Below are positions 2,911 to 23,040 of a stretch of DNA of 23,260 nucleotides, piece after piece. Position 1 is the first letter of the stretch; each line of letters begins with the position of its first letter. The position numbers and the translations under genes are program-made. Location: positions 1 to 23,260 of IMG/VR virus record IMGVR_UViG_3300018082_000029; one strand, written 5' to 3'. This stretch comes from a virus. The notes below the pieces were generated by a model, which saw nothing but the letters and a program-made list of their open reading frames with translations, had not been told where the DNA came from and made no database searches.

Positions 2911-2999
2911 GGCTGAAAATACCAGTAGGCAATGACTAGGATGCAGGCAGCGCTTGCGAGAATCGCCGCGAGGGTTAGGAGTGCGTCGAAGGGGTTCAT
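2907..2999 (-). CDS. 30-residue membrane peptide
   Basis: An ATGA-linked mini-gene. Its ATG (2999) overlaps the stop of the HNH-AP2 gene and its stop TGA (2907-2909) overlaps the ATG of the HD gene. The product is MNPFDALLTLAAILASAACI followed by LVIAYWYFQP, essentially one transmembrane helix. Overlap at both ends is strong evidence that it is translated. It may anchor or regulate a neighbour, or simply couple translation; no family is recognised. Confidence 0.65.
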   Translation of the reverse strand: MNPFDALLTLAAILASAACILVIAYWYFQP

Positions 3000-3493
3000 A
3001 CTTGATTGAGTTGCTCGAACTCGCCAAAATATTTCTTGGCGGCTTCATTGTAAGCGCGGGCTGCGTCCTCTTCGTTTTCAAAAGTTCCCAATAAATAGTC
3101 TTCCCCTTGGGTTCGTAAACGCGCCAGCCATCGCCCGCTTGGGCGACGGTGGACGCCTTTAAACGTAGAAGAACACACGCGGACGGTCTTACGTTTACTT
3201 TGCCGATTCTGAAGCGTCGAACAACTACGCAGATTGCTTCGGAGATTGTCTAACTTGTCGTGGTTTTTGTGGTCTATCTCGGTGCCGTTTCGAGACGAGC
3301 CTTTAGTCGGCAATTCCAAAACACAATGCGCTAGCGAGGCGTTAGAATTATTTTTTGCGTGCCGACGAACATACCCGCCCGCACCACAATACCATTTGGA
3401 GTTCCAAATCTCTTCACGACAATCCGAATCGACTTGGGCATACTTACCCTGAGAAAGCGGAAGAAAAATTACATGTGGAATCACGTCACTCAT
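2996..3493 (-). CDS. HNH-AP2 homing-type endonuclease
   Basis: A 165-residue protein with an HNH nuclease core (EIDHKNHDKLDNLRSNLR, about 72-89, catalytic His75 with following Asn residues) and a C-terminal AP2 DNA-binding domain (about 109-163: STFKGVHRR, RWLARL, LLGTF, EDAARAYNEAA). HNH plus AP2 is the standard architecture of phage free-standing or intron-type homing endonucleases. A GAGG string lies about six bases before the ATG, and the ATG follows the stop of the broken dNMP kinase fragment directly. Its position immediately downstream of a duplicated gene end suggests that it arrived with flanking DNA. The stop overlaps the next small gene (ATGA). Confidence 0.92.
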   Translation of the reverse strand: MSDVIPHVIFLPLSQGKYAQVDSDCREEIWNSKWYCGAGGYVRRHAKNNSNASLAHCVLELPTKGSSRNGTEIDHKNHDKLDNLRSNLRSCSTLQNRQSKRKTVRVCSSTFKGVHRRPSGRWLARLRTQGEDYLLGTFENEEDAARAYNEAAKKYFGEFEQLNQV

Positions 3494-5770: not shown

Positions 5771-5822
5771 TTTTGGTTTTTGGTTTCCGAGTCGACCAAC
5801 CGTCGAGTTCGTTTTTATTCAT
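5709..5822 (-). CDS. Possible 37-residue leader peptide
   Basis: The ATG at 5822 makes an ATGA overlap with the stop of the phosphoribosyltransferase gene, the junction used repeatedly in this cluster, and opens a 37-codon frame (MNKNELDGWSTRKPKTKNET...). It runs past, in another frame, the ATG of the 95-residue gene at 5770. It is very hydrophilic. It may be a real mini-protein or only a translation-coupling device that carries ribosomes over the A-rich leader. Confidence 0.3.
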   Translation of the reverse strand: MNKNELDGWSTRKPKTKNETEIENNKNRRTNVRRIRQ

Positions 5823-6331: not shown

Positions 6332-6507
6332 ACCACGGCGGCAATCAGTCCTGTAGCCTGTTGTTCAGAAAAGTCCGGATTAGCGGCCTGAAGTTGCGGG
6401 ATAAAATAGTTTACCAGCCACTTGGCAAACGCCTGCGCCGGCCCATTGTAAACTTGACGAGAGCGACGAAGTTCTTCGATAATGAGATTCAGATGGTTTT
6501 TGTTCAT
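6328..6507 (-). CDS. Small helical phage protein
   Basis: A 59-residue protein, MNKNHLNLIIEELRRSRQVY... An in-frame upstream ATG exists, but it would run the protein through the repeated leader; the ATG at 6507 is chosen because this leader (6508-6562) matches the leader of the 75-residue gene base for base in spacing. The pattern A-x-x-F-A-x-WLVNYF-x-PQLQAANP-x-F resembles common small phage proteins of unknown function. The stop overlaps the PRTase ATG. Confidence 0.75.
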   Translation of the reverse strand: MNKNHLNLIIEELRRSRQVYNGPAQAFAKWLVNYFIPQLQAANPDFSEQQATGLIAAVV

Positions 6508-6562
6508 GTAATTTTTTGGTTTGTTGTTTTTGTTTTGAAAATAGGCCAAGCGAGGGAGAATA
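6508..6562 (-). repeat. Leader repeat class 2, copy 1
   Basis: The 55 bases directly before the ATG of the 59-residue gene. Read on the minus strand it begins ATTCTCCCTCGC, continues with a GGC and a CAAAA-rich part, and ends with CCAAAAAATTAC before ATG. It aligns without gaps to 6819-6873. A GCGAGG just upstream could pair with CCTCGC of the element. Confidence 0.6.
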
Positions 6563-6590
6563 GAACCTCGCCCAGCTTTTCGGGGCATGA

Positions 6591-6818
6591 CTAGGCCCCG
6601 GCTTCCGTCTTGCTGACGGGAAAGTTCATGCCGCACGCCCGGTAAAACCGGCCCGTGTCAAAATTTGAATTATCTTCGCAGGCAATGCGGGCGAAGTCCT
6701 GCGCAATTTTGACGGCGGTGGACCGTATCGCACTGCCGTCACTTTTGATATCAGTGTTTGACCCGTCAATTATGGTTTTGATTGCAGCCGCTACCGCTAT
6801 GTAATGCTTTCTGGACAT
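6591..6818 (-). CDS. Small phage protein (MSRKHYIAVA type)
   Basis: A 75-residue protein beginning MSRKHYIAVAAAIKTI and ending with a SNFDTGRFYRACG block. The N-terminal SRKHY-x-AIA and C-terminal FD-x-x-RF-x-x-ACG signature recurs in many phages as an unnamed protein of 60-80 residues; function unknown. It has the class 2 leader repeat (6819-6873) immediately before the ATG and no Shine-Dalgarno sequence. Confidence 0.8.
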   Translation of the reverse strand: MSRKHYIAVAAAIKTIIDGSNTDIKSDGSAIRSTAVKIAQDFARIACEDNSNFDTGRFYRACGMNFPVSKTEAGA

Positions 6819-6873
6819 TTGATTTTTTGATTTGACGTTTGGTTTTTGAAAGAGTGCCGGGCGAGGGAGAATG
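6819..6873 (-). repeat. Leader repeat class 2, copy 2
   Basis: Direct repeat of 6508-6562, again ending at the ATG: ATTCTCCCTCGC, GGC, CTTTCAAAAACC, then CAAATCAAAAAATCAA before the ATG. Just upstream, TAAGGTGTTTAAACA resembles the first half of the start-associated element at 7836-7869 (TAAAGCGTTTAAACA), so this leader may be a hybrid of the two repeat classes. Confidence 0.6.
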
Positions 6874-6894
6874 GTTGTTTAAACACCTTAGCGT

Positions 6895-7074
6895 TTATTT
6901 ACGAATCAAACCATTGTAGACTTTCAAAGCGGCGCAACAAAAGCAATTATTGCAGCCACAAACCCGGCCCGTAAAGACGTGTGGGTTTCGCAAGGCGGCA
7001 ATGCCGCGTTCTGCGGCGAGCTTCTGAGCTTGCCCGATTTGAAGTTCAAAAAAACTTTTGTTTGTTTCAGTCAT
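6895..7074 (-). CDS. Cys-rich mini-protein
   Basis: A 59-residue protein, MTETNKSFFELQIGQAQKLA..., with a dense Cys cluster CGCNNCFCC (39, 41, 44, 46, 47). The frame is open further upstream, but that part translates the start-associated repeat and the end of the preceding gene, so the ATG at 7074 directly after the repeat is the likely start. The Cys spacing suggests metal binding; no family is recognised. Confidence 0.7.
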   Translation of the reverse strand: MTETNKSFFELQIGQAQKLAAERGIAALRNPHVFTGRVCGCNNCFCCAALKVYNGLIRK

Positions 7075-7108
7075 ACTATTGTTATCGGTAGGTTGCTGAA
7101 AAACTTTA
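7075..7108 (-). repeat. Start-associated element, copy A
   Basis: A 34-base element between two genes. Its first three bases are the TAA stop of the 68-residue gene and its end touches the ATG of the 59-residue gene. Minus-strand parts: TAAAGTTTTTCAGCAACC, then TACCGATAACAATAGT before ATG. It is repeated at 7331, 7617, 7836 and, more degenerate, at 8417 and 12797. Confidence 0.75.
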
Positions 7109-7312
7109 ATCTCCGTAGTAGCTGGTTTCATTCTGGTCGTAAGCCGGACCTTCAATCGCGCGCGTGCAAGCCTTGCAATGATACCCTTGACTTTTGTCAT
7201 GTTGGCTCAGTGCGTTCTTTGCTCCGCAAGTCGGGCAATCGTAGCGGTTGCCGGAGCGATTCGCCCGGCGGATTTGCGCGTAATATTCGGCTCGTTCTTG
7301 GTAGTCACTCAT
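7106..7312 (-). CDS. Zinc-ribbon mini-protein
   Basis: A 68-residue protein starting MSDYQERAEYYAQIRRANRS with two CxxC knuckles, CPTC (26-29) and CKAC (46-49), 16 residues apart: a classical zinc ribbon. It may bind nucleic acid or a host RNA polymerase subunit; that is inference. The ATG at 7312 is chosen because the part upstream is the repeat; here, uniquely, 18 bases with an A-rich ACCAAAAAAG separate the element from the ATG. Confidence 0.75.
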   Translation of the reverse strand: MSDYQERAEYYAQIRRANRSGNRYDCPTCGAKNALSQHDKSQGYHCKACTRAIEGPAYDQNETSYYGD

Positions 7313-7330
7313 ATCTTTTTTGGTTTCCGT

Positions 7331-7361
7331 ATTACCATCGGCAGGTTGTTGAAAAACTTTA
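7331..7361 (-). repeat. Start-associated element, copy B
   Basis: Begins with the TAA stop of the 85-residue gene (7359-7361) and reads TAAAGTTTTTCAACAACC, then TGCCGATGGTAAT. Unlike the other copies it does not touch the ATG; an A-rich 18-base spacer follows. Confidence 0.7.
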
Positions 7362-7616
7362 GTTGGCGGGTCGCGCGCCCGTCGCAACACGTTCAATTTC
7401 TTTAATTGCAGAGATTTTGCCTCCATCCGCTTCGTAGAAGGCTCGAAGATACCGGCGGCTGTCTCCGGTGCCTTCAAAAGCCTTCCAAGGATGGACCTCA
7501 CTCGGAGTATTTCGGGATTTCTCAAGCTGGCCGATAGTTACCCCGTTTCTTTGAACCAAATATAGCGCAGGAGTATACCTGCCAACTTGGATATCAATTT
7601 GTTTAATTGTAGTCAT
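7359..7616 (-). CDS. Hypothetical protein
   Basis: An 85-residue protein, MTTIKQIDIQVGRYTPALYL..., a mixed alpha/beta composition with an initial strand-like segment and a central W-K-A-F-E-G-T-G motif. I do not recognise a family. Both ends touch start-associated elements (stop TAA within copy B, ATG directly after copy C), which supports the start and the reality of the gene. Confidence 0.75.
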   Translation of the reverse strand: MTTIKQIDIQVGRYTPALYLVQRNGVTIGQLEKSRNTPSEVHPWKAFEGTGDSRRYLRAFYEADGGKISAIKEIERVATGARPAN

Positions 7617-7649
7617 GTTATTACTATCGGCAGGTTGCCTAAAACTTTA
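7617..7649 (-). repeat. Start-associated element, copy C
   Basis: 33 bases, TAAAGTTTTAGGCAACC then TGCCGATAGTAATAAC before ATG. The TAA is the stop of the 62-residue gene upstream. One base shorter than copies A and D. Confidence 0.75.
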
Positions 7650-7835
7650 GCTCGGAATTCGGGGAATTAAAATGACGCTCGGTCCTGGCGCGGTGGCTGT
7701 TACCACCCAGTCTGACAAATGCCACAATACCGGGTCTTGGCTGAATACCTGCTTAGACAGGCCATGATTATGAAGCTCGACAAAAACACTGGGGTTGAGC
7801 CTTTGCCACTCGTGAAGAAGGATTTTTTGTTTCAT
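7647..7835 (-). CDS. Hypothetical protein
   Basis: A 62-residue protein, MKQKILLHEWQRLNPSVFVE..., ending in a hydrophobic beta-like segment (DWVVTATAPGPSVILIPRIPS). There is no known motif. It lies exactly between start-associated elements C and D, with the stop and the start codon touching them. Confidence 0.65.
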   Translation of the reverse strand: MKQKILLHEWQRLNPSVFVELHNHGLSKQVFSQDPVLWHLSDWVVTATAPGPSVILIPRIPS

Positions 7836-7869
7836 ACTATTACTATCGGCAGTCTGTTTAAACGCTTTA
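7836..7869 (-). repeat. Start-associated element, copy D
   Basis: 34 bases, TAAAGCGTTTAAACAGAC then TGCCGATAGTAATAGT before ATG; the TAA is the stop of the zinc-ribbon gene upstream. The right half is identical to the consensus of copies B and C, while the left half differs and contains GTTTAAAC, an 8-bp palindrome. Confidence 0.75.
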
Positions 7870-8016
7870 GTTATTCCAGACAGATTTCAGAGATTTCTTT
7901 ATCCAGTTCCAAAGCATGCCGCAATTGCGACATCGCCCGTGTGTCCGACTTCCAAGTCGACCTAATACTTGAATTTCGCCGCCGCATAATTGGCAGGTTC
8001 GATTTATCCGATTCAT
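7867..8016 (-). CDS. 49-residue zinc-ribbon protein
   Basis: ATG at 8016, 49 codons: MNRINRTCQLCGGEIQVLGR... with CxxC at 8-11 and 29-32 and a C-terminal Trp/Lys-rich helix (MLWNWIKKSLKSVWNN). The two knuckles 17 residues apart form a typical zinc ribbon, and the basic amphipathic tail suggests binding to nucleic acid or a membrane surface. The TAA stop is the start of repeat copy D, and the gene lies 25 bases after the stop of the 124-residue gene. Confidence 0.75.
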   Translation of the reverse strand: MNRINRTCQLCGGEIQVLGRLGSRTHGRCRNCGMLWNWIKKSLKSVWNN

Positions 8017-8041
8017 AAACTCAAAAGGCTCGCTAAGCTAA

Positions 8042-8416
8042 TCATATAAGTATAATCGAACAGTCTTTCAGATAACAAATCGCAATCTGGTCGGCGCCCC
8101 GGCCAAGGTTTATCGCGTCCTCGCGGTTCGGAAGGCACACAACCATGTCAAGATAATGGAACCCACCATCCTGCCATGTGCCGAGCGCATAAATCGCCTT
8201 TGACGAGCCGCTTGAATACGCTGGAAGGCGCGTTAAATACTGTGCAATATCCTGCGGACTTGGCGCAATGTTGGACTTCCATTCCAAAGTCTTACAAAAA
8301 GAGACTGCGTATAAATCAAGGCCCGACAAATCCTCACCTGCGGGAAGCAATGTCGTCGAACCGCCGTTTTGATTGTGCCGGCTGAGTATGTCGAAGATGA
8401 TTTCGTTTGTAATCAT
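8042..8416 (-). CDS. Hypothetical phage protein
   Basis: A 124-residue acidic soluble protein. It includes GGSTTLLPAGEDLSGLDLYAVS (18-39) and a DMVVCLPNREDAINLGR (90-106) segment, reminiscent of uncharacterised phage accessory proteins, but I cannot name the family. It is preceded by a degenerate start-associated element (copy E) that keeps the CGATAGTA core at the same distance from ATG. Confidence 0.75.
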   Translation of the reverse strand: MITNEIIFDILSRHNQNGGSTTLLPAGEDLSGLDLYAVSFCKTLEWKSNIAPSPQDIAQYLTRLPAYSSGSSKAIYALGTWQDGGFHYLDMVVCLPNREDAINLGRGADQIAICYLKDCSIILI

Positions 8417-8450
8417 ACCAATACTATCGACGATATGCAGAAGAACGCAA
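8417..8450 (-). repeat. Start-associated element, degenerate copy E
   Basis: Directly before the ATG at 8416 the minus strand reads TCGTCGATAGTATTGGT, matching the right half of the other copies (CGATAGTA at the same position), while the left half (TTGCGTTCTTCTGCATA) has lost most similarity. Just upstream lies a small hairpin CCGTA-GAAA-TACGG. Confidence 0.5.
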
Positions 8451-8468
8451 GTCCGTATTTCTACGGGT

Positions 8469-8495
8469 CTAGAAGTAGGTAATTACCCTAGAAGT
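8469..8495. promoter_or_regulatory. Operator-like palindrome with flanking direct repeats
   Basis: The perfect 10-bp palindrome GGTAATTACC (8478-8487) is flanked by two identical 8-mers CTAGAAGT (8469-8476 and 8488-8495). The right 8-mer overlaps the stop of the 116-residue gene. The symmetry suggests a protein-binding site, but no promoter boxes are evident around it. Confidence 0.35.
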
Positions 8496-8838
8496 TGCGG
8501 GATACCGCACGAAGCGTGAACGAAAACGGCTTTACATATTTAAGCCTATCGGCACGCCGGATAAATTTTGGAATTAGGTCGAACCAACGAGCCGCGCTTG
8601 ACGCTTTCTTTGGCAACGAAGCTAAAAACCACGTTCCATCGGCAACCCCGATGCTAACTGAACCTGTTAATATTCCCCGCGCGTCGCGATGGGGCACAAC
8701 GTGCACATACCGGGCTGACTTGATAGCCCGACGAACCGCGAGAGTAACAGCGCAGCGCGCAGAGTCTCCAGGCCGCCCGTCTAGAATATCCAGACGACTA
8801 ACATTAACCCGCCTAACAAACTTAAGAAGTGTTTTCAT
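8488..8838 (-). CDS. Conserved phage/bacterial small protein
   Basis: A 116-residue protein with the signature V-NVSRLDILDGRPGDSARCAV (N-terminal, about 11-31), then TLAVRRAI, and a C-terminal LP--A---FI---D----V-PFSF-L pattern. Proteins with this NV-x-x-x-DI-x-x-G-x-x-x-D-x-x-x-C-A/P-V-A-x-A layout are frequent in phages and plasmids and remain of unknown function as far as I know. The A-rich leader ACCAAAAAATAC precedes the ATG, and the ATG overlaps the upstream stop (ATGA). Confidence 0.8.
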   Translation of the reverse strand: MKTLLKFVRRVNVSRLDILDGRPGDSARCAVTLAVRRAIKSARYVHVVPHRDARGILTGSVSIGVADGTWFLASLPKKASSAARWFDLIPKFIRRADRLKYVKPFSFTLRAVSRNF

Positions 8839-9032
8839 GTTTTGTATTTTTTGGTTAGCTTCGCTCCTTCGCGACGAAATTCATCCGGCGCTAAAGCAGG
8901 AGGAAAGATAATCTCCGCGAAATTGTCTTTATATTGCTGCGTCCAGCCACTGCGAGGGACGCTTCCCTTGCCGGACCCGTGAGCGTTGCCGAAAAGGTTC
9001 CGATTAACTGGTCCTATCTTACGCCTTTTCAT
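8835..9032 (-). CDS. Small basic protein
   Basis: A 65-residue Lys/Arg/Gly-rich protein, MKRRKIGPVNRNLFGNAHGS..., ending KLTKKYKT. It has no fold-defining motif. It overlaps the upstream gene by 14 bases and the downstream ATG by ATGA, which is the main support for its being translated. Confidence 0.65.
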   Translation of the reverse strand: MKRRKIGPVNRNLFGNAHGSGKGSVPRSGWTQQYKDNFAEIIFPPALAPDEFRREGAKLTKKYKT

Positions 9033-10682: not shown

Positions 10683-11363
10683 TCACGCGTGTCCCCATTC
10701 CTTTTCCCATTCTAAATCCCTCGCCTCCGCGCGTTGTTCCTCCGCTGCGCGTGCGGCAGCAACTTCCGCTTGTGCTGCGGCAAGCTCCTTCTGTGCGGCA
10801 ATAAGCCGGGCTTGTGGGGTGACGACGGTAGAGGGTGCCGCCGCTTTTAACTGAATCTCATACAACATGCCGACGCGCAAAATAACATAGCGACAGTCCG
10901 GCGACTTAATATTTTGACCTCGCCTGTCAAGGTATTGCCATGCAGCGGAGTTAGACGTAAAAGTCTTGCCCACTTCAACAGCGTGGCTCTTTTTCTGGCG
11001 CCAAAGCTTTATCTCGTGGGTTTTGTCCTCGACTATGCGCCACGATTGTCCGTCGTGTTGGTAGGCATAAGGGCAGTCGAAGGAATGCGGGTTGTATCCT
11101 GCTTCCTTCAAGGCACGAACGGCATTTTCTTTGCGGGCATACTCAGTCTCAAGCAACCTAACTCGCTTCGCTCGTTCCTTCTCTTCAGCGTCGCGCCGGT
11201 TGATTTTTGCGCCCGCCTCTAGCAGATTAGCACGGCGAAGCTTTTCCCCTTCTGTAAGCGGGGTAATAGAAGGAACTTTTTTTGGTGTAGACACGTCGCG
11301 CTCATCGTCATCGGCGTAGAACTGCCACTCCGCTGGTGCCAGTTCTTCGATTTTACTTTTCAT
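10683..11363 (-). CDS. Coiled-coil hypothetical protein, first gene of the leftward cluster
   Basis: A 226-residue protein starting MKSKIEELAPAEWQFYADDD. The ATG at 11363 is chosen over an in-frame ATG at 11420 because the latter part translates iteron DNA. Residues ~45-90 and ~185-222 are charged/Ala-rich helices (LIAAQKELAAAQAEVAAARA), and the middle (~95-180) is a small aromatic domain (YQHDGQSWRIVEDKTHEIKLW). No catalytic motif is seen. It lies next to the iteron/palindrome region at 11384-11498 and may be an early gene controlled from there. Confidence 0.75.
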   Translation of the reverse strand: MKSKIEELAPAEWQFYADDDERDVSTPKKVPSITPLTEGEKLRRANLLEAGAKINRRDAEEKERAKRVRLLETEYARKENAVRALKEAGYNPHSFDCPYAYQHDGQSWRIVEDKTHEIKLWRQKKSHAVEVGKTFTSNSAAWQYLDRRGQNIKSPDCRYVILRVGMLYEIQLKAAAPSTVVTPQARLIAAQKELAAAQAEVAAARAAEEQRAEARDLEWEKEWGHA

Positions 11364-11368
11364 ATTGA

Positions 11369-11396
11369 AGCTTAAACTGGATTGGCGAATTGTCAA
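11369..11396 (-). promoter_or_regulatory. Candidate leftward promoter inside iteron 1
   Basis: TTGACA (11391-11396), 16-bp spacer, TAAGCT (11369-11374), five bases to the ATG at 11363. The -10 box is weak, but the perfect -35 box coincides with the first iteron, so a protein bound to the iterons would block it. Confidence 0.45.
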
Positions 11397-11469
11397 ATCG
11401 GCGAATTGGCGGATTGTCATAACATACTTTACGGAGGATTGTCATAATATACTTTTAGGAGGAGTAACA
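11384..11469. repeat. Four iterons of 24-25 bp period
   Basis: On the plus strand GGCGAATTGTCA (11384), GGCGGATTGTCA (11408), GGAGGATTGTCA (11433) and a weaker GGAGGAGTAACA (11458) recur every 24-25 bp. Iterons 2 and 3 continue with TAA-C/T-ATACTTT. The period is more than two helical turns. They lie in the gap between the leftward cluster and the rightward genes, the usual place for operators or a replication origin. Confidence 0.65.
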
Positions 11470-11498
11470 TAATAAGTATTATTATACTCCTCCTAAAA
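11453..11498. promoter_or_regulatory. 14-bp perfect inverted repeat at the divergence point
   Basis: TTTTAGGAGGAGTA (11453-11466) is repeated inverted as TACTCCTCCTAAAA (11485-11498) around an 18-base A/T-rich centre. The left arm contains iteron 4. The arms contain GGAGGAG, so a transcript in either direction would carry a Shine-Dalgarno-like string in a stem. Bases 11499-11621 beyond it hold no convincing gene, only A/T- and pyrimidine-rich DNA. Confidence 0.6.
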
Positions 11499-12478: not shown

Positions 12479-12796
12479 TTAGCTCCTTCTTAGGCAGTTG
12501 GAAACGATGCGCGATACTTCGTCGGGCGTCAGGTCCCGGTATATTGGTAGTCTTCTAGCCGCATTTGCCTTCCGTTCAGCGGCATAGTAAGCAGCGGATT
12601 CGGCATACGTGGCCCAACGCCCCCCGTTTGCTTGCCGCCATCGGGCAAGCTCCGTCGCGGCTAGCGCCGCAGCCACCGCCGCTTGTTCTGCTTTTACCGC
12701 CTTCTCTCTTTGTTCCCGGCGTTTGTCCCTCGCGTCCTCGCGCCATAGTATAGGTAGAAGGTAGCAGCACGCGAGGACAATCAGTAATGTAATCAT
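12479..12796 (-). CDS. Small N-terminally anchored membrane protein
   Basis: A 105-residue protein: MITLLIVLACCYLLPILW is a transmembrane anchor (2-18), followed by a charged Ala/Glu/Arg helix (about 20-65) and a short folded tail. The single N-terminal anchor plus coiled coil is the layout of inner-membrane spanins (Rz-like), but no partner outer-membrane lipoprotein frame is embedded or adjacent, so lysis is only one option. It is a single-gene unit with its own terminator and is preceded by start-associated element F, which links its control to the distant cluster at 7-8 kb. Confidence 0.75.
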   Translation of the reverse strand: MITLLIVLACCYLLPILWREDARDKRREQREKAVKAEQAAVAAALAATELARWRQANGGRWATYAESAAYYAAERKANAARRLPIYRDLTPDEVSRIVSNCLRRS

Positions 12797-12829
12797 GCTT
12801 TTACTATCGGCGCGGTGCCGGGATACTTA
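12797..12829 (-). repeat. Start-associated element, copy F
   Basis: Directly before the ATG at 12796: CGCCGATAGTAAAAGC, with TTAAGTATCCCGG at the left end. The CCGATAGTAA core sits at the same distance from ATG as in copies A, C and D, although this gene is 4.4 kb away from them and on its own. Confidence 0.6.
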
Positions 12830-12881
12830 AGCGAAAAGGCTCGCGAGTGGGCCAAGTGTTTTTTCCCGTTGTTTAACCACT

Positions 12882-17281: not shown

Positions 17282-17965
17282 ATGGAAACTACTTTTATCT
17301 ACGCACTCTGCGAGCCGGGAACCCGAATGATTCGGGATATTGGCAAGGCCAACAACCCCCAAAAACGGCTGAAACAGCACTGGTATACGTCGCGAAAAAA
17401 GAAAAACCACCTGGGCTGTTGGCTGCGGAGTCTCGCCAAGCCGCCCGCACTCTTAATTCTAAAAGAAGTTCCTGAGTCGGAGTGGCAGGAATGGGAGCGG
17501 CGGTATATTCGCTGTGCAAAAGCGTTGGGGTTTCGGCTAGTCAACGGCACCGAAGGCGGGGAGGGGGGTTCGCTTCCCGGCGCGGAGCATCCGATGTTTG
17601 GAAAAGTTGGTCCAAACAAAGGGAAGAAACACTCGTTGGAAACCCGCGAGAAAATTAGCGCCGCCGCGCGTGGAAGAAAACATTCGCCGGAGACTCGCGC
17701 GAAAATTAGTGCGGCAAAGGTTGGGAAACCCAGAAAGCCGTTTTCCATAGAAACACGCGCGAAGATGCGCGCGGCTGGTTTGGTAAAAAGGTTTTCTGCG
17801 GAGCACCGTGCGAACCTTAGCGCGGCGGGCATCGGAAGAAAACACTCGGTGGAGACCCGCGAGAAAATTAGCGCCGCCAATCAGGGAAGAAAACTTTCGT
17901 CGGAGCAACACGCGAAGCTTGTCGTCGCCCAGCAAAAGCGGCGAATCGCAGAGAAAAAGACGTGA
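17282..17965 (+). CDS. GIY-YIG homing endonuclease with six NUMOD3-type repeats
   Basis: A 227-residue protein. The GIY-YIG domain is residues 4-95: FIYAL (5-9), RDIGKANNPQKRLKQH (18-33, with Arg29), EWERRYI (catalytic Glu72) and LVNGTEGGEG (86-95). The rest (about 113-220) consists of six ~18-residue DNA-binding repeats of the form GRKHS-x-ETR-x-KISAA (NUMOD3-like), the usual tail of T4 Seg/I-TevI relatives. The repeats are also visible in the DNA. It stands free between recombinase and packaging genes. Its stop overlaps a GTG start (GTGA). Confidence 0.93.
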   Translation: METTFIYALCEPGTRMIRDIGKANNPQKRLKQHWYTSRKKKNHLGCWLRSLAKPPALLILKEVPESEWQEWERRYIRCAKALGFRLVNGTEGGEGGSLPGAEHPMFGKVGPNKGKKHSLETREKISAAARGRKHSPETRAKISAAKVGKPRKPFSIETRAKMRAAGLVKRFSAEHRANLSAAGIGRKHSVETREKISAANQGRKLSSEQHAKLVVAQQKRRIAEKKT

Positions 17966-20737: not shown

Positions 20738-20966
20738 ATACGTCGGTTCCCGCGCGCGAATCCTCTGGTGGAAGCTCCAGGGCTTGAAAATTTTCGTGTC
20801 GGAAGAAATAGAAACCGCGCGTTGGGAGAAATGCTACCGGTGTTCTCAGTTGGACGTAGAAGCAGGAATTTGTAAAAGATGCGGATGCGAGCTACTCGCA
20901 AAAAACGCGCTGGCCCCAGAGGCTTGCCCGATAGGAAAGTGGAATCGAGAATATGTTAAAGACTGA
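20697..20966 (+). CDS. Zinc-ribbon protein (CPxGKW type)
   Basis: An 89-residue protein: a basic, aromatic N-terminus (RARILWWKLQGLKIFV) and a zinc ribbon CYRC (46-49), CKRCGC (59-64), ending ACPIGKW (76-82). The C-x-x-C ... C-x-x-CGC ... CP-x-GKW signature matches small phage zinc proteins often found near head genes. ATG 20697 lies 41 bases inside the previous gene, and the end overlaps the portal start by 14 bases. Confidence 0.75.
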   Translation: MNSRIFVGVAKAFRYVGSRARILWWKLQGLKIFVSEEIETARWEKCYRCSQLDVEAGICKRCGCELLAKNALAPEACPIGKWNREYVKD

Positions 20967-23040
20967 CGGCACAGATAGCATTAGCCCATATCCCGCGAGC
21001 GAGCGCGGCGGGCTTATTCAGAGCGCAGATATCAAAAGTGTAAAAGGAGGTCCCCGCAATCGCTCAATCCGAGACGTAGGGCAACTAAAGGCCGTTGTGC
21101 AAACGTTGATTTCTGCGAACCGTGAGCGACAACTCGTAAACTCGCGCATCCAGGCGAAGGTAAATGTTGAAAAGCCCTACTCGCAGCGCAAGCTTGACGA
21201 TGAAGGGCTCGGCTGGAGGTCAAACTTCTCCACGAGGCCCCTCACATTAATAATCGAAAAGGTTTACCCGCGTTTTGTGGACTCAGTTCAGTCGTTAAAA
21301 TACGTCACGGCGGCAGAGCTTCCGCCAAAATATGAAAATGCGACAGAGAAAACCGAAAGTTTTCGCGACGGCCTAACTCGTCTCATTCGCGCGCGGTCCG
21401 GCTGGAGAACCTTTTTGGAAACGGTTGCCCAAGAAAACGCATTGTTCGGTTCTAACGTCGTCGCTTGGCTCGACGAGTTCAGTTGGTTTCCGACGCGCCC
21501 GTTGCAACAAAACGAATCGTTTCTAACGGACGGCGCGAAGCAGGATGTAGAGTTTGCGCAAGTTGTGCTGGTAAAAGAAACACTTCTTCCGCATGAAGTT
21601 TTTGGTTTTATAAAAGACGAAGAGTCCGCAAAGGCGGCAGGCTGGGAAATTCAAGCGGCGATAGAAGTTATCAACAAGGCGTCACCCTCGCAAAATCGCG
21701 ATAATGTAACTGCCGGGACTACTTCGGAGAAATGGTATCAGGACGCGCAGCGTGATTTGACTCTCGGTGCTTCTTACATGGCTGGGGCCAGCGTTATCCA
21801 AATGTATTCCGTGCTGGTCCGCGAAGCGACCGGCAAAGTGTCGCACTACCGACTGGCGGGCGAAGATTTGAAGCTCGTTTTTCAGAAAGAGGACCGCTTC
21901 GAGAAAATGGAAGACTGTCTTGCTTTTTTTTCTTTTCAAAGGGGTAACGGAAACATGCACGGCTCGAAAGGAATCGGTCGCGAAATTTATGAATTGGCCG
22001 GTATCCTTGACCGGACTCGCAATGAGCTAGTTGACCGCGCGATTTTATCTGGCAAAACTTTTATTCAGGGCGACCTTCGTAATTTGCACAAGCTCAAGAT
22101 GAGTATCGTCGGCGCGATGGTCATTGTGCCTGCTGATTGGCAGTTCCTTGAGACGAAAATCGACGGCAACGTCGAGCCTTTTTTAAAACTTGACGCCTAT
22201 ATAGGTATGCTGGTCGACCAACTCATCGGCAGTGTTTCCCCGCCCAGAATTGAAGGAGAAGCTTTTCGTTCTCCGCAGGCGTGGTCGCTGCTGGCGCAAC
22301 GAGAGGAAGAGGGTCGGGACGCAAAAATTTCTCGGTTTTTGGAACAATTTGCCAGGATGGTTCAGACTATGCAACGTCGAATCTGTAGCACGGATGTCGT
22401 TGATGAAGATGCGAAAGCGTTTCAGAAGTTGATGTTGGAAAAAATGTCTCGCGAGGAGCTAAATGTTTTGGCCAACAGTCCGGTTGCGGGCACGGTGCGG
22501 GATTTGACTCCCGTGCAGCGTCAGATGATTTCGATTCTGGCAGCAGAGAAAAAAGGTAATCCACTTTATAATCAACGCGCGCTAGAGGTTGAAGACATAA
22601 CCGCGCGGGTCAATGCGGATTTTGCAAAGAAGATTTTGTTGCCCGAAAACGACCCAACAATCATGGCAGAGCAAAGCAGATTACAAGCTATGGAATTGCA
22701 GCTAATCCTGGCGGGACAGGCTTGCCCCGTTTCTCCAAGGGATTCCCATTCTATACACTTGGACATACTCATGCCTCTGGCAGAAAAAATTGGCGAAGGA
22801 GTTAACTCTGGTCAGACCGATACGGCGACGCTTGAAGCCTTCGTGGCCCATGTAGCGGAACACTACGAAAGAAGTCAACAATCTGGCGCGGACAAGGCAA
22901 AATTAAAACCAGTGGGAGATTTCTTAAAGAAAATTCTACCGGCGATTGAACAATTAAAAACCCTGGATACCCAAGCATCGGAAGTTAGTGCTGCTGCGCA
23001 GGCGCACGCACAAGAGGAAGAAATGGGTCCTCCGGTATAA
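20953..23040 (+). CDS. Portal protein
   Basis: A 695-residue protein directly after the terminase module. It contains recognisable portal features: an N-terminal stem with RERQLVNSRIQAKVN and KPYSQRKLDDEGLGWRSNFSTRPL, an HGSKGIGREIYELAGILDRTRNELVDRAI clip/wing-type segment (about 337-365), and a long C-terminal helical part (RMVQTMQRRI..., EVEDITARVNADFAKKI, SRDSHSIHLDILMPLAEKI-type). The size and the D-S-H-x-x-HLDI--PL motif agree with large portals of podovirus-like or related head-tail systems. The Gln/Ala/Glu-rich C-terminus may contact core or scaffold proteins. Family assignment rests on composition, length and position more than on one diagnostic motif. Confidence 0.85.
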   Translation: MLKTDGTDSISPYPASERGGLIQSADIKSVKGGPRNRSIRDVGQLKAVVQTLISANRERQLVNSRIQAKVNVEKPYSQRKLDDEGLGWRSNFSTRPLTLIIEKVYPRFVDSVQSLKYVTAAELPPKYENATEKTESFRDGLTRLIRARSGWRTFLETVAQENALFGSNVVAWLDEFSWFPTRPLQQNESFLTDGAKQDVEFAQVVLVKETLLPHEVFGFIKDEESAKAAGWEIQAAIEVINKASPSQNRDNVTAGTTSEKWYQDAQRDLTLGASYMAGASVIQMYSVLVREATGKVSHYRLAGEDLKLVFQKEDRFEKMEDCLAFFSFQRGNGNMHGSKGIGREIYELAGILDRTRNELVDRAILSGKTFIQGDLRNLHKLKMSIVGAMVIVPADWQFLETKIDGNVEPFLKLDAYIGMLVDQLIGSVSPPRIEGEAFRSPQAWSLLAQREEEGRDAKISRFLEQFARMVQTMQRRICSTDVVDEDAKAFQKLMLEKMSREELNVLANSPVAGTVRDLTPVQRQMISILAAEKKGNPLYNQRALEVEDITARVNADFAKKILLPENDPTIMAEQSRLQAMELQLILAGQACPVSPRDSHSIHLDILMPLAEKIGEGVNSGQTDTATLEAFVAHVAEHYERSQQSGADKAKLKPVGDFLKKILPAIEQLKTLDTQASEVSAAAQAHAQEEEMGPPV

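Follow-up and report, generated by a model that had tools for sequence, protein, structure and literature searches.

The repeated element that separates consecutive small genes in this phage fragment is with good probability a set of sigma-28 (FliA/SigD/WhiG-class) promoters that directly abut start codons, an arrangement that would give rise to near-leaderless mRNAs. The assignment to the sigma-28 class rests on sequence and its statistics; promoter activity, start point and the sigma factor used are inferred. The window analysed here, a virus record of 23,260 bases, covers part of the genome of a soil phage; the genomes of its relatives measure 68-75 kb. All copies of the repeat that were found lie on the minus strand, as do the small genes concerned: the main copies are located at 7108-7075, 7361-7331, 7649-7617 and 7869-7836, with two more at 8431-8417 and 12830-12797. 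A previous sequence-only reading had placed the four main copies between the stop codon of one gene and the start codon of the next, and this placement was confirmed: the gap from the TAA stop to the following ATG is wholly filled by the copies at 7075-7108, 7617-7649 and 7836-7869, and the copy at 7331-7361 starts at a TAA stop and is followed by an extra A-rich stretch, with the ATG (7310-7312) further off, as had been described. The core CGATAGTA occurs four times in the window against 0.26 expected from dinucleotide shuffles, and all four occurrences are found 6 nt before an ATG; the possibility that the core is equally common away from start codons, which would have spoken against the element, thus does not hold in the window. 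The hexamers most enriched immediately before starts in the window are ATAGTA, GATAGT, CGATAG and CCGATA, and the reported lack of a Shine-Dalgarno sequence was borne out in all repeat copies.

The published consensus of sigma-28 (FliA/SigD) promoters is TAAAGTTT-N11-GCCGATAA, and comparison with the element reveals that the TAA stop at its left edge is the start of a -35 box and that CCGATAG forms the -10 box. The small genes of the block are separated by gaps of 30 to 46 nt that contain four such putative promoters (P1-P4) in tandem, each with a -35 box whose first letters are the stop codon of the gene before it; a fifth (P5) lies at a distance. The sites were counted against the 16 consensus positions and scored in bits with a weight matrix derived from E. 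coli FliA ChIP-seq data (22 sites). The features concerned are as follows.

7075..7108, minus strand: P1, putative sigma-28-type promoter, 15/16 of the FliA consensus, 22.7 bits; -35 box TAAAGTTT at 7108-7101, beginning with the TAA stop of gene 7106-7312, 11-nt spacer, -10 box ACCGATAA at 7089-7082, CAATAGT, ATG at 7074-7072 (in order, TAAAGTTT-TTCAGCAACCT-ACCGATAA-CAATAGT-ATG)
7313..7361, minus strand: P2, putative sigma-28-type promoter, 14/16, 20.3 bits; -35 box TAAAGTTT at 7361-7354, 11-nt spacer, -10 box GCCGATGG at 7342-7335, 22-nt A-rich stretch, ATG at 7312-7310
7617..7649, minus strand: P3, putative sigma-28-type promoter, 15/16, 21.3 bits; -35 box TAAAGTTT at 7649-7642, 10-nt spacer, -10 box GCCGATAG at 7631-7624, TAATAAC, ATG at 7616-7614
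7836..7869, minus strand: P4, putative sigma-28-type promoter, 13/16, 13.4 bits; -35 box TAAAGCGT at 7869-7862, 11-nt spacer, -10 box GCCGATAG at 7850-7843, TAATAGT, ATG at 7835-7833
12797..12830, minus strand: P5, putative sigma-28-type promoter before ORF 12479-12796, 13/16, 17.4 bits; -35 box TTAAGTAT, 11-nt spacer, -10 box GCCGATAG, TAAAAGC, ATG
8417..8431, minus strand: -10-only copy GTCGATAG followed by TATTGGT before the ATG at 8416-8414, without a -35 match, below 8.5 bits
6895..7074, minus strand: ORF of 59 aa behind P1, no Pfam match
7106..7312, minus strand: ORF of 68 aa, zinc-ribbon-like, behind P2, Pfam matches all below cut-off
7359..7616, minus strand: ORF of 85 aa behind P3, with a homologue in relative G011 (36% over 55 aa)
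7647..7835, minus strand: open reading frame of 62 aa behind P4
12479..12796, minus strand: ORF of 105 aa behind P5, no Pfam match

The -35 box TAAAGTTT is matched at 8/8 positions in P1-P3 and at 6/8 in P4 and P5, the -10 box GCCGATAA at 7/8 positions in P1, P3, P4 and P5 and at 6/8 in P2, with CCGAT retained in all five (RCCGATRR for the array as a whole), and the spacers fall within the sigma-28 rule of 11 nt (+/-1). None of 20 simulated sequences with the dinucleotide frequencies of the window contained a site with at least 14 of the 16 positions. For comparison, the E. coli FliA sites themselves reach a median of 17.0 bits in a leave-one-out analysis (22 sites), and by chance both strands of the entire window together would be expected to yield 0.084 sites of >=17 bits and 0.007 of >=20 bits. 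Three sites of >=19 bits are present in the window vs one in 1.06 Mb of control phage loci (those among the matches listed for the reversed pattern). P4 is a modest match, with about one site of its score expected by chance in the window, and P1-P4 are probably of common ancestry and hence do not represent independent draws for these statistics. Variants of the -10 box are found at bacterial promoters: GCCGATGGT of P2 is also present at the E. coli FliA site in uhpT (PMC4183435), and GCCGATAGT of P3 at the E. coli flxA FliA promoter. Two copies had been described as degenerate and retaining only the core: this is correct for the one at 8417, which is, judged by its letters, a weak or decayed site, but not for the one at 12797-12829, where a good -35 box is present. 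A 15-mer, CTGCCGATAGTAATA, was also searched in viral contigs and discarded, as its 47 matches are mostly chance.

Each small gene of the block would accordingly possess its own sigma-28-type promoter, from which RNA polymerase would start at the ATG or 0-2 nt before it (approximately 15 nt before it in case of P2), yielding leaderless or near-leaderless mRNAs that would not need a Shine-Dalgarno sequence. The predicted position of +1 at or next to the ATG follows by analogy from E. coli aer, where transcription begins 6 bp beyond the -10 octamer (PMC2859248): the end of the -10 box is separated from the ATG by 7 nt in four of the five promoters and by 22 nt in P2. The ATG of P2 being 15 nt further away, a promoter with a short A-rich leader fits this copy, but a translation signal acting at fixed distance does not. 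Of the regulatory signal that had been suspected in the element, the regulatory part is upheld by a two-box promoter with the right spacer; its reading as a translation-initiation signal is not supported. An unexplained repeat thus becomes a named, testable regulatory signal. The boxes, the spacer of 10-11 nt and the tolerated -10 variants are those of flagellar sigma-28 promoters (E. coli tsr TAAAGTTTTTCCTTTCCAGGCCGAAAAT, tar, flxA), from which the sites in the window differ in being located in a phage, arranged serially between small genes, overlapping stop codons and having a predicted start at the ATG. The attack-phase FliA promoters of Bdellovibrio (TTAAG-N16-CCGATA), to whose consensus P5 is close, are of the same class and serve many non-flagellar genes, but are cellular rather than phage promoters.

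The relatives of the phage were identified through the protein encoded at 20953-23040, which has 34 relatives with up to 59% identity in a protein search and is portal-like by its place after the terminase, without a family match; protein searches with the terminase and the helicase returned no relatives. A search of bacterial genomes produced one 12.7-kb contig (L121) in a Candidatus Peribacteraceae MAG, which encodes a homologue of this protein with 46% identity and probably represents a misbinned phage belonging to the window's family. A position matrix and a search of relatives had been proposed as a check: when the element was sought across the relatives, it was seen only in G008, the closest syntenic relative, where the ATG of a small ORF is closely preceded by TAAAGTCT-N11-GACGATAA (19.1 bits) and a -10-only site, CCGATAGTATTGGTATG, stands before an ORF for which no homologue is evident in the window. 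Members of this phage family seem generally to place promoters at start codons: in a set of 332 non-redundant start regions, exact TTGACA motifs occur 47 times within 80 nt of the start, 32 of them at positions -40 to -34 (the relatives' genes being taken from a simple purpose-written caller, so that individual starts are approximate), and Shine-Dalgarno motifs are rare, at approximately 6-7% of starts in the window and G008. In G014 and G021 (L110, L116), recurring TTGACA promoters (TTTGACAACCCGCCCGACCTGGGCGACATTGTGCC ahead of the ATG) occupy the 30-46 nt gaps before small genes, with a start near the ATG as for the array in the window; they differ from it in possessing a primary-sigma -35 box (TTGACA) and another -10 box. 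Across the family ACTATT is enriched near starts (15 vs 0.64), and in G006 (L092-L094) the sequence TGACTATT stands before five plus-strand genes, possibly as a late promoter element of its own. In the window, a similar A-rich stretch (ACCAAAAA...) is found before the ATG of minus-strand genes at 5771-5790, 6819-6840, 7313-7330 and 8839-8860, possibly a second kind of start region.

Beyond the family, viral contigs contain at least 120 loci that match TAAAGTTTN{10,12}GCCGATA; single matches mean little, since the reversed control pattern also gave at least 120. Clusters of sites behave differently: 21 loci among the 120 real matches listed contain at least two sites of >=19 bits vs one control locus with any such site among the 120 matches listed, and 33 sites of >=19 bits beyond the first per locus occur in 1.13 Mb of matches listed, with approximately one expected. 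In whole records, TAAAGTTTN{10,12}CCGATA is found eight times in G034, seven in G024 and four each in G027 and G037, with no occurrence of the reversed pattern there. Several strong sigma-28-type matches each are present in L187 (G024), L173 (G034), L170 (G027), L127 (G028), L231 (G023) and L218 (G029), six uncultivated phage contigs with no known kinship to the window. Some array matches (G037, G032) overlap with a TTGACA motif and could be elements of another kind. Four loci with TTGACAATGCCGATAAT...TATAAT (L144, L152, L210, L214) were not counted as sigma-28 arrays, being more likely primary-sigma promoters; they exhibit repeated TTGACAATGCCGATAAT-TATAGTATAATA, whose spacer contains a conserved CCGATAA that may be an operator. 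The cluster pattern is a lead and not a result about the window. In the open-access literature, we found no description of a phage with a sigma-28 promoter array. It is conceivable, though we advance it only tentatively, that phages tie blocks of small, for the most part uncharacterised genes to a flagellar sigma factor through a separate start-abutting sigma-28 promoter for every gene and that this class, of which the window would be one example, recurs in unrelated uncultivated phages; if true, infection programmes would depend on the motility state of the host, or the phage would bring a FliA-derived sigma factor along.

As to the sigma factor that would read these promoters, we lean somewhat towards a presumed flagellar sigma-28 of the host, because five relatives that bear a sigma gene lack the array and other, possibly incomplete array contigs show no sigma gene; if the flagellar sigma governs phage genes, infection would be linked to host motility. 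The alternative is a FliA-related sigma factor of the phage itself, encoded elsewhere in its genome, which would make the array a phage-specific promoter class, and this we regard as a serious possibility despite our doubts. No sigma gene was found within the 23,260 bases of the window fragment, and all six large relatives (68-75 kb) encode a sigma factor of 220-263 aa; the Pfam region-2 model detected four of these proteins, which then served as tblastn queries that retrieved the other two.

L107:3628-4419, L108:4477-5232, L094:8859-9581, L109:5875-6561, L090:2112-2771 and L114:18031-18690, minus strand: FliA-related sigma genes of the relatives, divergent, below the curated FliA/WhiG cut-off

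Sigma-70 region 4 exceeds the cut-off in all six, and region 2 is found at E<=0.01 in four and above the cut-off in two. After the general sigma-70 superfamily model, FliA/WhiG models rank first or near the top among the specific matches, with RpoH and SigA close behind, and the best PDB match of the profile is E. coli FliA (1.8e-17), followed by WhiG. Phage sigma factors with late promoters of their own are established for phiEco32 and 7-11 (PMC8948821), which resemble the present case in sigma factors encoded within the family and in repeated phage promoters; their specificity can change between relatives (PMC8948821), and the promoters involved (tAATGTAtA; GTAAtg-16-aCTA) do not resemble the sigma-28 consensus. 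Against a phage-encoded reader stand the relatives G005, G006, G011, G013 and G014, which are without the promoter array although the sigma gene is present, the very close agreement of the boxes with the cellular consensus, and the distance of the phage sigma factors from FliA itself: with NCBIfam TIGR02479 they score 37.6-72.8 bits (73 at best) vs a FliA_WhiG cut-off of 189.6 and are distant relatives only. A search with the sigma factor as query recovered only itself. The notion that array-bearing phages always carry a sigma gene is not supported, since G024 (35 kb), G027 (88 kb) and G028 (50 kb), which may be incomplete contigs, have none at E<=0.001.

That the element acts at the RNA level, as a translation-initiation or regulator-binding signal like the start-associated sequences (SAS) of cluster K phages, is very improbable. 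The fixed distance to the ATG in four of the five copies and the lack of a Shine-Dalgarno sequence would agree with such a signal, but the blocks that are conserved coincide exactly with promoter boxes, the fixed distance is broken by P2 and the -35 part shares letters with the stop codon of the gene before it; scans for Rfam families and tRNAs gave no hits, the element included. The parallel with cluster K, which had been put forward earlier, is not supported by comparison of the two elements: both are repeated directly upstream of unrelated phage gene starts, but the SAS is GGGATAGGAGCCC (PMC3203893) and the extended form (ESAS) adds 17-bp inverted repeats, neither of which is present in the window's element, and no copy resembles the SAS within two mismatches of GGGATAGGAGCCC (sequence read by eye).

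We give equally little credence to primary-sigma promoters (-10 GATAGT/GATAAC with a weak -35 box) that would merely resemble sigma-28 sites. The -10 position is that of the TTGACA promoters of the family, but a TTGACA-like -35 box is missing and TAAAGTTT is complete in three copies. A scan for sigma-70 promoters and terminators across 6500-9000 of the window found no more than in shuffles and none at the element sites.

A recombination seam for exchange of single-gene cassettes, devoid of a promoter role, is the least credible reading, since it leaves unexplained both the consensus match and P5, where only the boxes are shared. The observations in its favour are compatible with sigma-28-type promoters, for which exchange would be a secondary effect, and to this extent the idea of a seam survives. 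The spacers of P1-P4 are 60-91% identical (6-10 of 10-11 positions), those of P5 and P1-P4 agree at 2-5 of 10-11 positions, and the boxes are common to all. The flanking genes are not recent tandem duplicates, which had been considered as a trivial source of the similarity: the small proteins are not paralogous (their one weak match spans 15 residues, E = 0.003), and beyond the element the DNA is no more alike than by chance (identity 0.17-0.38). As spacers free to vary are alike and flanking genes are unrelated, P1-P4 probably derive from one another by copying of promoter cassettes that left the genes behind; the pattern of P5 is as expected if function, not recent copying, keeps the boxes. 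Upstream of the G011 homologue of ORF 7359-7616 the sequence is different, so that promoter and gene are not bound to each other. If promoters are copied ready-made into the space between stop and start codons, this would explain how unrelated small phage genes come to be expressed separately.

Several further observations concern the surroundings of the element. At 6876-6890, after gene 6895-7074, the minus strand reads TAAGGTGTTTAAACA, which is like the left half of P4 (TAAAGCGTTTAAACA) and is perhaps, going by this likeness, a decayed copy without a -10 box. The segments 6493-6561 and 6804-6872 of the window are 74% alike. A homing-endonuclease-like gene of HNH/AP2 type, of which G008 and G005 contain several copies, is located at 2996-3493, and one of GIY-YIG/NUMOD3 type at 17282-17965. 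Upstream of gene 10683-11420, a near-perfect inverted repeat is found at 11453-11498 (22-nt arms, 91%, 2 nt between, AGGAGGAGT in the arms), with TATGACAATCCNCC duplicated beside the start codon there.
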